From: a virus
Direction: 5' to 3' (one strand)
Length of the DNA: 23,965 bases
IMG/VR virus record: IMGVR_UViG_3300027816_000401
Location: 1-23,965 of that record
Part shown: in pieces, positions 20,953-23,965 of the stretch
Layout of the letters: every line of letters starts with the position of its first letter
Numbering within the stretch: position 1 is the stretch's first letter
The notes under the pieces: generated by a model
Seen by the model: only the letters and a program-made list of their open reading frames with translations
What the model was told of the DNA's origin: nothing
Databases searched by the model: none
Made by a program: the position numbers and the translations under genes

Positions 20953-21729
20953 ATGTCAGAACCAATTACAACCAGATCAAAATTCAAAGAATATTGCCTA
21001 AGACGTTTAGGTTTTCCTGTCATTGAAATCAACGTTGACGATGATCAAGTAGAAGACAGAATTGATGATGCACTACAATATTGGCAAGATTATCACTTTG
21101 ATGGCTTACAGAAAATATACTTCATCAAAAGAATTGATCAGACAGACATAAACAACAGATATCTGAATTTGGCTGAAGCCAGAGATTCTGCAAACAACCT
21201 TTCAGAAATAACTGGTGTAACCAGAATATTTCCAATGTATGACTCTCAGGCAACTATCACTATGTTTGACTTGAGATACCAGTTGCGTCTAAATGAATTG
21301 TATGACTTCACCTCTGCATCATACATCAACTATACAATGACAATGCAACACCTGCGTATGTTAGAACAACTTTTCACTGGTGAGGTTCCCATTCGTTACC
21401 AAAGACATATGCAGAAACTGTTTATTGATTGGGCTTGGGGATCTTCGCAAGTTCCTGTTGGTCAAGTTGTCATCATCGAGTGTTATGGTGTGATCAATCC
21501 TGATGCGTATGGTAGAGTCTGGAACGACCGTTGGTTGAAAGAGTATGCAACTGCACTCATCAAGAGAAGTTGGGGAAATAACCTGAAGAAGTTTGCCGGA
21601 GTTCAATTACCAGGCGGTGTCATATTGAATGGTGATAAGATTTATAACGAAGCCGTAGATGAAATTAAGTTGTTGGAAGCCGATATGGAAAAAAATTATG
21701 GCGGAATTTTAGACTGGTACATGAATTAA
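20953..21729 (+). CDS. 13: Neck protein, T4 gp13 homologue
   Basis: 258 residues, with GGGGG five bases before the ATG. It matches the gp13 family of T4-like phages in layout: an acidic N-terminal helix with EYCLRRLGFPVIEI and DDALQYWQDYHFDG, a central region of helices (MTMQHLRMLEQLF) and a C-terminal part with WAWGS, NPDAYGRVWNDRWLKEYATALIK and a Gly-rich loop (VQLPGGVILNG). With gp14 it completes the neck that joins the head to the tail. It is shorter than T4 gp13, as is usual in marine relatives. Its order with gp14 and gp15 is the T4 order, broken here by a homing endonuclease. It ends DWYMN, and the TAA is 62 bases before the endonuclease start. Confidence 0.85.
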   Translation: MSEPITTRSKFKEYCLRRLGFPVIEINVDDDQVEDRIDDALQYWQDYHFDGLQKIYFIKRIDQTDINNRYLNLAEARDSANNLSEITGVTRIFPMYDSQATITMFDLRYQLRLNELYDFTSASYINYTMTMQHLRMLEQLFTGEVPIRYQRHMQKLFIDWAWGSSQVPVGQVVIIECYGVINPDAYGRVWNDRWLKEYATALIKRSWGNNLKKFAGVQLPGGVILNGDKIYNEAVDEIKLLEADMEKNYGGILDWYMN

Positions 21730-21763
21730 GATACAATTCAAGTACCCCCAAAAAGTCCTTTTT

Positions 21764-21771
21764 TATAAATA
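21764..21771 (+). promoter_or_regulatory. Exact T4 late promoter TATAAATA
   Basis: A perfect match to the T4 late consensus, 20 bases before the endonuclease ATG. Transcription would be expected to start near 21777, giving a leader of only about 15 bases. It could also supply transcripts for gp14 and gp15. Confidence 0.65.
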
Positions 21772-21778
21772 CTTTTAT

Positions 21779-21783
21779 GGAGG
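21779..21783 (+). promoter_or_regulatory. Ribosome binding site GGAGG deciding the endonuclease start
   Basis: Ideal spacing of 8 bases to the ATG at 21792. The upstream ATG at 21777 overlaps this site and is rejected. Confidence 0.75.
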
Positions 21784-21791
21784 ACAAATCT

Positions 21792-22469
21792 ATGAAAGTA
21801 TATTGTATAGAAAACAAACTGAGTGGTAAAAAATATATCGGCATAACCAAAGGCACCATAGAAAGAAGATTTAAGAGACATATTGAAATTGCTAAGTATA
21901 AAGAAAAAAAACAACACTTACATAAAGCAATGATAAAATATGGCATAGAAAATTTCACAGTTTATGAATTGGATTTTGCCAACTCCAAAGAAGAATTATT
22001 TGAAAAAGAAAAGAATTGGATAAAAAAACTCGACACGAAAAATAATGGTTATAATGAAACTGATGGTGGTGAAGGAACTTGGGGTTGGAAACCATCACCA
22101 GAAAAACAAAAAATATTAAATGAAAAACAAAAAGAATTGTGGAAAGAAAATTTAAAACTAAGAGAAGAACACTCCAAAAAAGCTAAAGAACGATGGAATA
22201 GTTTGTCTGATTTTGAAAAAGAAAAAAGAAAATTAAATTTTTTAGAAGTGCGAAAACTTACATCAGGTTCCAAAGGCAAAACATGGAAGTTATCTGAAGA
22301 AACTAAATTAAAAATGAGTTGTTCAAAAAAAGGTTGGGTAATGACGGATGAAACAAGAAAAAAATTAAGTGAGATTGCAAAGAATAGAAAACCAAGAAAA
22401 CATTCACCAGAAACAATTCAGAAAATGAAAGAATCTGCTTTGAAAAGAACGCGAAAGATAGGTACCTAA
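21792..22469 (+). CDS. GIY-YIG homing endonuclease with NUMOD3-like repeats
   Basis: 225 residues. The N-terminal catalytic domain has Tyr4-Cys5-Ile6 (GIY strand), Tyr15-Ile16-Gly17 (YIG), the catalytic-type Arg26 in ERRFKRH and Glu73 in EKNWI, then an NGYNETDGG loop. After a charged helical linker come three NUMOD3-type DNA-binding segments, beginning KTWKLSEETKLKM, WVMTDETRKKL and KHSPETIQKM. It is Lys-rich and its DNA is A-rich compared with its neighbours, as expected for recent entry. Such free-standing endonucleases of T4-like phages cut a site in related phages that lack the gene and spread by repair. It sits between neck genes 13 and 14 and stops one base before the gp14 ATC. No group I intron core fits, because the frame is coding right up to gp14. 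Confidence 0.85.
   Translation: MKVYCIENKLSGKKYIGITKGTIERRFKRHIEIAKYKEKKQHLHKAMIKYGIENFTVYELDFANSKEELFEKEKNWIKKLDTKNNGYNETDGGEGTWGWKPSPEKQKILNEKQKELWKENLKLREEHSKKAKERWNSLSDFEKEKRKLNFLEVRKLTSGSKGKTWKLSEETKLKMSCSKKGWVMTDETRKKLSEIAKNRKPRKHSPETIQKMKESALKRTRKIGT
22460..22462 (+). promoter_or_regulatory. AGG core of a possible Shine-Dalgarno for gp14 at ATC 22471
   Basis: Lies inside the end of the endonuclease gene with an 8-base gap to ATC 22471. Spacing is good but the core is only three bases. Confidence 0.35.
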
Positions 22470-22470
22470 A

Positions 22471-23355
22471 ATCGCAACATCCGTTTATTTTAACAATTAC
22501 AACTCGATTGCAGAGCAACGGGTTGTTGAAGATTTGATAGTTGAATCTATTAAGATAATGGGATTTGATTCCTACTACTGCCCAATCTTCAATCAAGAAG
22601 ATAGAGATATACTGTATGGTGAAGATCCAATCAAGAAATTCAAGTCAGCATTTCCTGTTGAATTCTACCTTTCGAATGCTTTGGAATACATGGGCGACAA
22701 AGAGTTCTTTACCAAGTTTGGTTTAGAAATTCGAAACAATGCAAACGTCATCATTTCAAAGCGTTCTTTCTCTCAACGTGTACCACAAAACATATTTACA
22801 AGACCACGTGAGGGTGATTTGATTTATGTTCCGTTCTTAAATGGTACGGGTGAATTGTTTGAGATCAAATTTGTAAATCAAACAAAAGACTTCTTCACAC
22901 TTGGTCGCAAGATTCCGTTCTTCTATGAACTGGAACTTGAGAAGTTCAAGTATTCACAAGAAGTTATCGATACTGGTATAGCAGATATTGATGATGTTGT
23001 TACCCAGTCCAGTTACACAATCGATCTCACGGTTCGTAACGGAAACGCAAACAACTATTCACAAAAAGAAATTGTATTCCAGTCAGACGACAGAACACTT
23101 GCAAACGCATCCACGACAGCAACTGTACAAAACTGGAATGCATCATCAAATGTTCTAAGTGTGACAAACGTTTATGGTGAATTCACAGACAATGTTACAA
23201 TTATTGGTGCAACAAGTAATGCACAGTACATGCTAACATCTTATAATCCTTTGAAAGACAGTGTGCCAAACGAAAACTATGACAATATGTACATAGAAGA
23301 CCAGGCAAACAACATCATTGATTTTACGGAAATTAATCCGTTCGGAAAAATTTAA
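22471..23355 (+). CDS. 14: Neck protein, T4 gp14 homologue, with non-ATG (ATC?) start
   Basis: The frame, read from ATC 22471, gives 294 residues beginning IATSVYFNNY, then AEQRVVEDLIVESIKIMGFDSYYCP. This fits the gp14 family, where the first residues are typically M-A-T-x-VYF, so ATC stands where ATG is expected. The in-frame stop TAG at 22459 leaves only VPK before that Ile. The first common start codon in frame, TTG 22534, would drop 21 conserved residues. Later parts (ILYGEDP, PREGDLIYVPF, FFTLGRKIPF) also fit gp14. It overlaps the next gene at TAATG. With gp13 it forms the neck. The start is uncertain: an AUC start, a +1 frameshift at ACC UAA, the TTG start, or a sequence error are all possible. 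Confidence 0.75.
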   Translation: MATSVYFNNYNSIAEQRVVEDLIVESIKIMGFDSYYCPIFNQEDRDILYGEDPIKKFKSAFPVEFYLSNALEYMGDKEFFTKFGLEIRNNANVIISKRSFSQRVPQNIFTRPREGDLIYVPFLNGTGELFEIKFVNQTKDFFTLGRKIPFFYELELEKFKYSQEVIDTGIADIDDVVTQSSYTIDLTVRNGNANNYSQKEIVFQSDDRTLANASTTATVQNWNASSNVLSVTNVYGEFTDNVTIIGATSNAQYMLTSYNPLKDSVPNENYDNMYIEDQANNIIDFTEINPFGKI

Positions 23356-23965
23356 TGGCAGCAATTCAATACAATCGCATCATACGAAAAATTGTTGTTG
23401 GATTTGGCGACTTATTCAATAATATCACACTGGTGCGTTACGATTCAAATCAGGTAGAAAAGGAAAGATTCTTAATACCAATCGCATATGCTTCTAAAGA
23501 ACGATATGTGATGCGTCTGGAAGATGATCCAAATCTGGACAAGAAAGTTCAGATGGCTTTGCCTAGACTGTCATTTGAAATGACTGGGCTTTCTTACGAT
23601 AGTACCAGAAAACAAAATACAAACGTCAAGAATTTTGCTTCAGGTGCATCAGGTGCACTGTCACAATATAATCCAGTACCGTACAATTTTGACTTCAGTC
23701 TGTATTTGTATGTACGAAATATTGAAGATGCAACTCAGGTTATTGAACACATTGTACCTTATTTTACACCAGATTATACGGTGAAAATAAACATGATACC
23801 TGAAATGGGAATCGTGAAAGAAGTACCTGTGATTTTAAATTCTACAGACCACGAAATAGTTTATGAAGGTGATAGAGATCAAGCAACAAGAATGATCATC
23901 TGGACTTTAAGGTTCACTGTCAAAGGATTTATATTTGGTAAACAGACAGCAACAAATCTCATTAC
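23355..23965 (+). CDS. 15: Proximal tail sheath stabilizer, T4 gp15 homologue (3' cut)
   Basis: Starts at the ATG in the TAATG overlap with gp14 and runs off the window after about 203 codons. It begins MAAIQYNRIIRKIVVGFGDLF. Later segments include PIAYASKERYVMRLEDDPNL, LPRLSFEMTGLSYDSTRK, YNPVPYNFDFSLYLYV, IEHIVPYFTPDYTV, NSTDHEIVYEGDRDQATR and FTVKGFIFG. This series of motifs is that of the gp15 family, which stabilises the tail sheath and joins the tail to the neck. The C-terminus is outside the window. The gene order 13-14-15 agrees. Confidence 0.85.
   Translation, partial: MAAIQYNRIIRKIVVGFGDLFNNITLVRYDSNQVEKERFLIPIAYASKERYVMRLEDDPNLDKKVQMALPRLSFEMTGLSYDSTRKQNTNVKNFASGASGALSQYNPVPYNFDFSLYLYVRNIEDATQVIEHIVPYFTPDYTVKINMIPEMGIVKEVPVILNSTDHEIVYEGDRDQATRMIIWTLRFTVKGFIFGKQTATNLI

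Follow-up and report, generated by a model that had tools for sequence, protein, structure and literature searches.

How is gp14, an essential tail-neck gene, started in a phage in which its normal ATG has been lost beside an inserted selfish endonuclease gene? The locus that raises this question belongs to a 23,965-nt stretch of DNA (IMG/VR virus record IMGVR_UViG_3300027816_000401; the whole stretch is herein referred to as the window) from an uncultured, T4-like phage. A preliminary description of the sequence had pointed out an ATC where gp14 should carry its ATG, and had listed a rare AUC start reached by translational coupling, a +1 shift joining the endonuclease and gp14 frames, and a start at a downstream TTG as possible ways out. 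An AUC start is considered vanishingly rare and gene finders exclude AUU, AUC and AUA as starts; to our knowledge, the accepted cases of such starts amount to only a handful of bacterial genes.

The gp13-gp14 junction of the window

All features of the locus lie on the + strand. The gp13-type neck protein (head-tail adaptor Ad2; phrog_211, E 9e-41) is encoded at positions 20953-21729 and gp14 (head closure Hc2, T4_neck-protein) at 22471-23355, followed at 23355-23965 by a gp15-type tail sheath stabiliser that runs off the window and that we used as a control gene. The identity of gp14 follows from a match to PF11649 above the cut-off (3e-26), a match to phrog_460 (1e-67) and its position between the gp13 and gp15 homologues. 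From the gp13 stop to the gp14 start codon there is an insert of 741 nt (21730-22470), absent from relatives with ATG, which consists of a 62-nt leader with a putative T4-type late-promoter-like box (TATAAATA, 21764-21771) and a free-standing GIY-YIG homing-endonuclease gene with NUMOD3 (21792-22469; PF01541, 1e-9, and PF07460, 2e-7, both above cut-offs; phrog_314, 2e-32). Similar TATAAAT boxes occur in the leaders of other GIY-YIG relatives (L086, L118, L153, L290 and L314). The presence of both the catalytic domain and the NUMOD motif, at a position where close relatives (L009, L010, L011, L013) and many others carry no insert, identifies the insert as a GIY-YIG free-standing homing endonuclease, with a predicted ability to cleave insert-free alleles and to spread by homing. 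Its start is more likely ATG 21792 than ATG 21777, because the latter, although the first ATG, overlaps the likely Shine-Dalgarno sequence GGAGGA (21779-21784) that precedes ATG 21792; the N-termini of its relatives read MKVYCIENK or MKIYCIENK.

The coordinates given for this junction in the preliminary description proved correct. The endonuclease ends in ATA GGT ACC TAA, with the stop at 22467-22469, one nucleotide 5' of the ATC (22471-22473) that we propose as the gp14 start codon, and its last codons contain the AGG (22460-22462, 8 nt 5' of the ATC) that would serve as the core of the gp14 Shine-Dalgarno sequence; GTAGGNACCTAAAATY is conserved even where the sequences upstream of it are unrelated. 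Upstream, a TAG (22459-22461) closes the gp14 frame, which then runs GTA CCT AAA ATC GCA ACA TCC GTT TAT TTT (VPK-IATSVYF) without any ATG, GTG or TTG between the TAG and the ATC, so that the earliest conventional start in the frame is TTG 22534-22536, codon 22 of gp14.

The ATC indeed occupies the position of the ATG of relatives. The same four insert-free relatives, which are the nearest (91-94% protein identity), read ATG GCA ACC there, with the ATG directly behind the gp13 stop. Four more contigs (3300031951_003058, 3300032116_004737, 3300031758_002148 and 3300008107_004361) carry the identical ATC and flank, and ATC 22471 is therefore not a base-calling error. We give next to no chance to the possibility that the codon is a sequencing or assembly artefact, or that gp14 is dead. 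Starts of the ATH type (ATC, ATT or ATA) are found in metagenome assemblies only (16/16 cultured relatives inspected start gp14 with ATG, and a near-DNA search against cultured phages matched nothing); however, ATC recurs in five independent contigs of the window's clade, ATH starts occur in more than 60 distinct alleles, and gp14 is full length and conserved.

Start codons and coding constraint across gp14 alleles

Protein and pattern searches of viral contigs yielded 234 distinct gp14 loci with a placeable conserved start, at which the codon was ATG in 139, ATC in 39, ATT in 24, ATA in 6, TTG in 11 and GTG in 9; in the remaining six an ATG lies either one codon upstream or a few codons off, and apart from these no other codon was found at the conserved position. 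One locus (L381, ATC-ATG) was set aside as an ordinary ATG start, leaving 68 usable ATH alleles. The ATH set was gathered in part with patterns that required ATH, one of which also required an AGG-containing motif, whereas protein-only searches, which are free of pattern bias, gave ATH in 9/53, 3/70 and 5/48 distinct alleles. There is no conventional start within eight codons at 60 of the 234 loci. Over the whole set of loci gp15 starts with ATG in 225 of 226 cases, and 176 of 186 gp13 genes start conventionally (the others being truncated alignments); non-conventional starts are specific to gp14 as compared with its neighbours gp13 and gp15. The anomaly is neither unique to the window phage nor tied to its endonuclease, and ATH starts also occur behind spacers of 10-23 nt without any endonuclease.

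Upstream of the ATH codon these alleles have an in-frame stop at a distance of 1 to 27 codons, with no ATG, GTG or TTG between. Downstream, codons 2-21 are under purifying selection, with pN/pS of 0.143 (25 ATH alleles close to that of the window) and 0.034 (14 alleles from another clade), values like or below those of the rest of gp14. This selection leads us to reject the start at TTG 22534, for which the 21 upstream codons would have to be dispensable. That codon is the earliest conventional in-frame start and would be the choice of ORF callers, but a start there is highly improbable: the TTG is an ordinary Leu codon, just 12 of 25 comparable ATH alleles (and 18 of 44 ATG alleles) have TTG as codon 22, the position varies without pattern between TTG, TTA, CTN and Ile, and in several ATH alleles the first 44 codons contain no conventional start at all.

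The ATH alleles also have the stronger Shine-Dalgarno sequences, the median duplex energy being -7.8 kcal/mol for ATH and -2.9 for ATG (p 2.5e-22). Because one search pattern had demanded an AGG-containing motif, the test was repeated on ATH alleles that lack the shared motif (median -8.1, p 2e-13), and the contrast also persists when only alleles from the protein search (p 7e-8) or only displaced junctions (p 3e-4) are compared. The Shine-Dalgarno sequence of the window itself is moderate (-4.3 kcal/mol) and among the weakest of the ATH alleles. The gene thus has no upstream conventional start in frame, is constrained from the AUH codon on, and carries a well-spaced Shine-Dalgarno sequence, as a non-canonical AUH start should. 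The census, the gp13 and gp15 controls and the Shine-Dalgarno contrast place the observation well beyond chance. Among the options initially listed, it is the AUC start that these results and the selection strongly support, and AUC, or AUH more broadly, is almost certainly in long-term use in this one phage gene across dozens of related phages.

Displaced junctions, inserted elements and alternative routes to gp14

The gap between gp13 and gp14 is at most 4 nt in 130 of 152 ATG/GTG/TTG alleles as against 0 of 59 ATH alleles (741 nt in the window), and gaps above 400 nt, most of which contain an endonuclease ORF, belong to 28 ATH and 8 ATG alleles. The displaced junctions that go with ATH hold a GIY-YIG endonuclease, an HNH endonuclease or a short spacer, and ATH starts are found next to intact endonucleases (of two nuclease classes), next to decayed ones, or next to nothing more than a short spacer. 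On the gp14 tree there are at least 25 changes between ATH and conventional starts, a count that recombination can inflate. Of about 16 independent pairs with good support, about 14 combine ATH with a gap above 4 nt and none shows the reverse (p 1e-4), and ATH goes with a strong Shine-Dalgarno sequence in about 13.5 of 19 pairs (p 2e-4). ATH arose or was exchanged repeatedly on this tree, which rejects a recent single origin.

The suggestion that the endonuclease had entered at the very start codon holds as a rule. The HNH genes, whose profile matches lie just under the Pfam cut-off, start at the old ATG of gp14, 1 nt after the gp13 stop. Two GIY-YIG genes (L246 and L098) open with M/V-A-T-K/N, the first codons of gp14, after which gp14 resumes as I-A-T-N; by their sequences, these two elements have evidently captured the start of the neck gene. 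Several inserts share the tail QS..MK..W..RK.G[TGN]*, the codons of which form the Shine-Dalgarno sequence and are followed by TAA A ATH; elements of the window's type differ in having the 62-nt leader with the late-promoter-like box. We also observed that the C-terminal tails of HNH and GIY-YIG endonucleases of one site are similar (L025, L246, L098, L282 and L314), which suggests that nuclease domains may have been exchanged on a common DNA-binding end. An endonuclease at the site does not force ATH, since an HNH element is accompanied by a retained ATG, with an altered flank, in L067/L069, and L446 and L428 carry an HNH endonuclease at the gp13-gp14 site and likewise keep the gp14 ATG. These four loci constitute natural controls for the loss of ATG elsewhere.

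Loci that have lost the endonuclease frame by deletion or disruption still keep the motif and the ATH codon; in L050/L267, for example, the remnant measures 41 nt (T ATG AAA CAT AAA CAA GGA AGA AGA AAG GCA GGA ACC TAA A, then ATT). Retention of the Shine-Dalgarno sequence and AUH, the features that all these loci share, argues against both a +1 shift and an intron. In a +1 shift at ACC UAA A, a slip from ACC to CCU would yield an endonuclease-gp14 fusion, and indeed the site is conserved in many alleles and resembles slow-stop +1 sites, and the gp14 frame is +1 relative to that of the endonuclease. A programmed shift would, however, need the upstream frame always to run into the shift site, whereas L057, L071, L099, L136, L164 and L165 keep the motif without an ORF of at least 10 codons into the TAA (in L057 the upstream frame is gp14's own and ends at the TAG), and ATH clades such as L288, L237, L253 and L290 lack ACC UAA. 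A 230-aa fusion onto the neck protein is moreover implausible, and the conservation of ACC-UAA is accounted for by the endonuclease C-terminus together with the Shine-Dalgarno sequence. The evidence disfavours the shift, which we regard as improbable.

Group I intron splicing, or ribosome hopping, might instead join an upstream AUG to gp14, given that homing endonucleases are often intron-borne and that the HNH elements start at the old ATG. We consider such a route scarcely conceivable: no self-splicing core surrounds the gene, in that no Rfam group I match was found, the remnants that preserve the junction measure 16-66 nt and are too small for an intron core, and no AUG remains 5' in the window (TAA GATACAATT).

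A further possibility is strict termination-reinitiation, in which no ribosomes would use the AUC other than those coming directly from termination at the UAA 1 nt 5'. The stop lies exactly 1 nt before the ATH in nearly all endonuclease-bearing ATH alleles, HNH remnants with in-frame deletions (12, 63-68 and 66 codons) retain it, and coupling aided by a Shine-Dalgarno sequence is strong in E. coli (PMC2268962). Nevertheless, no ORF of at least 10 codons terminates within 70 nt in L270; for L136, L165 and L293 the closest stop is that of the upstream gene, 54-56 nt off, or merely that of an out-of-frame small ORF, 41 nt off; and in the L288 clade gp13 ends 10-11 nt away. A terminating ORF is thus found within 25 nt of the ATH in most alleles but not in all, and a strict dependence on reinitiation appears doubtful. 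As alleles without such an ORF exist, coupling may assist initiation but is not a general requirement; the coupling first envisaged for the window, where the endonuclease stop lies 1 nt 5', is plausible without being universal.

Proposed initiation at AUC and its parallels

We hold it to be very probable that gp14 initiates at AUC 22471, a remnant of the ancestral AUG, by means of the Shine-Dalgarno sequence in the endonuclease tail and probably with a hand-over of ribosomes. The position, conservation and selection at this codon, the stronger Shine-Dalgarno sequences, the specificity to gp14 and the repeated link with a displaced junction were all established computationally. From these we infer initiation at the AUC, its efficiency and the coupling as follows. 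A homing endonuclease gene would have entered behind the gp13 stop and ahead of codon 2 of gp14, removing the old start context, such that its final codons would now supply the Shine-Dalgarno sequence (AGG, 8 nt 5') and place a UAA 1 nt 5' of the AUC. This endonuclease-tail sequence would position the 30S subunit, ribosomes would probably be handed over from the endonuclease, and fMet-tRNA would accept the AUC despite the third-base mismatch, as at known AUU/AUC/AUA starts. The predicted product would begin fMet-Ala-Thr-Ser-Val-Tyr-Phe, with (M)ATSVYFNNYNSIAEQR as its N-terminal peptide. Since the T4 neck needs few copies of gp14, a lower output from AUC would be tolerable. Published codons of the AUH kind initiate weakly, and gp14 expression may therefore hinge on coupling. 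The arrangement is heritable, as AUC/AUU/AUA starts occur in many related uncultured T4-like phages. No phage IF3 homologue was found in four long relatives, and none of the Ile and Met tRNAs of two relatives resembles an initiator.

We tentatively propose that loss of the AUG may be part of the strategy of the element. An AUH codon would destroy the endonuclease target and make its carriers immune, the Shine-Dalgarno sequence in the tail would keep gp14 starting, the resulting dependence would retain the element or its scar, and AUH would persist as resistance. Part of the same tentative proposal is that two nuclease classes (HNH and GIY-YIG) with similar tails recurrently use the gp14-start site. 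It is possible that ATG is not regained because AUH protects from cleavage; alternatively, output may be tuned or a fixed cassette may recombine.

Unusual starts are known in a few host genes. The infC gene starts with ATT in E. coli and with ATC in Streptomyces, and sigR with GTC (PMC5472188); S. aureus has AUU and AUA starts that are conserved jointly with extended Shine-Dalgarno motifs and whose output is ~10-30% of that of AUG (PMC13009471). The verified non-canonical starts of infC (IF3; AUU/AUC/AUA), ccpN (AUA), cvfC1 (AUU) and sigR (GTC) would resemble that of gp14 in being conserved codons of the Ile type or similar with reduced output, and in having a strong or extended Shine-Dalgarno sequence, as the gp14 ATH alleles do (PMC5472188; PMC13009471). 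However, these are host regulatory genes, subject to IF3 feedback or regulation, whereas gp14 is an essential phage structural gene, and unlike theirs its start codon flips between ATG and ATH among relatives, alongside displacement of the junction by mobile elements. In T4, endonuclease insertions put the promoters of downstream essential genes inside the endonuclease gene, which favours its retention, and the seg and mob genes, like the insert of the window, are GIY-YIG or HNH genes situated between conserved late genes; for these the available part of the source describes displaced promoters only, whereas in the window the ribosome-binding site is in the endonuclease tail and the downstream start is ATH (PMC2988022). 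Coupling of the M13 geneV-geneVII type shares with gp14 a stop a few nucleotides before the start and a Shine-Dalgarno sequence that boosts reinitiation (PMC2268962), but the gp14 start is AUC, AUU or AUA and some gp14 alleles lack a close upstream terminating ORF. In the open-access literature we found no description of a phage neck gene that starts at AUH, nor of AUH starts linked to homing endonucleases. The more than 60 distinct natural AUH alleles of gp14, alongside ATG, GTG and TTG alleles of the same conserved structural gene, represent a natural experiment in how Shine-Dalgarno strength and coupling offset a weak start codon, and they link the evolution of start codons to homing endonucleases that insert at them.

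A genome-wide scan of the window and two relatives for genes that combine AUH with a Shine-Dalgarno sequence returned only gp14 and one other convincing gene, a 5'-3' exonuclease (phrog_107) with an apparent AUU start (L487:16188-17033, GACAGGTGATAAA-ATT). In G003, whose gp14 starts with ATA, the exonuclease gene reads GACAGGTGATAAA ATT ATT ATT GTA GAT TTC AAC CAA. Counted as distinct alleles, the exonuclease starts among relatives are ATG in 40, GTG in 5 and ATT in 7, and the Shine-Dalgarno sequence is strong in all seven ATT alleles (about -8.1) and mostly weak in sister ATG alleles. No insert was found at the exonuclease start, and displacement is therefore not the sole road to AUH starts. 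The exonuclease sequences support a broader occurrence of such starts, and many phage annotations probably misplace the start of gp14 and of at least one further gene, or miss these genes.

Two kinds of RNA gene were also observed in the relatives. One relative (G001) carries an array of 27 tRNA genes (L479:3506-9123) from which tRNA-Met is absent, and tmRNA genes are present in two long relatives (L474:10546-10962 and L481:7636-8024, on contigs of 156 kb and 155 kb, respectively). The L474 tmRNA matches the Rfam beta_tmRNA and permuted tmRNA families, which hints at a betaproteobacterial host.
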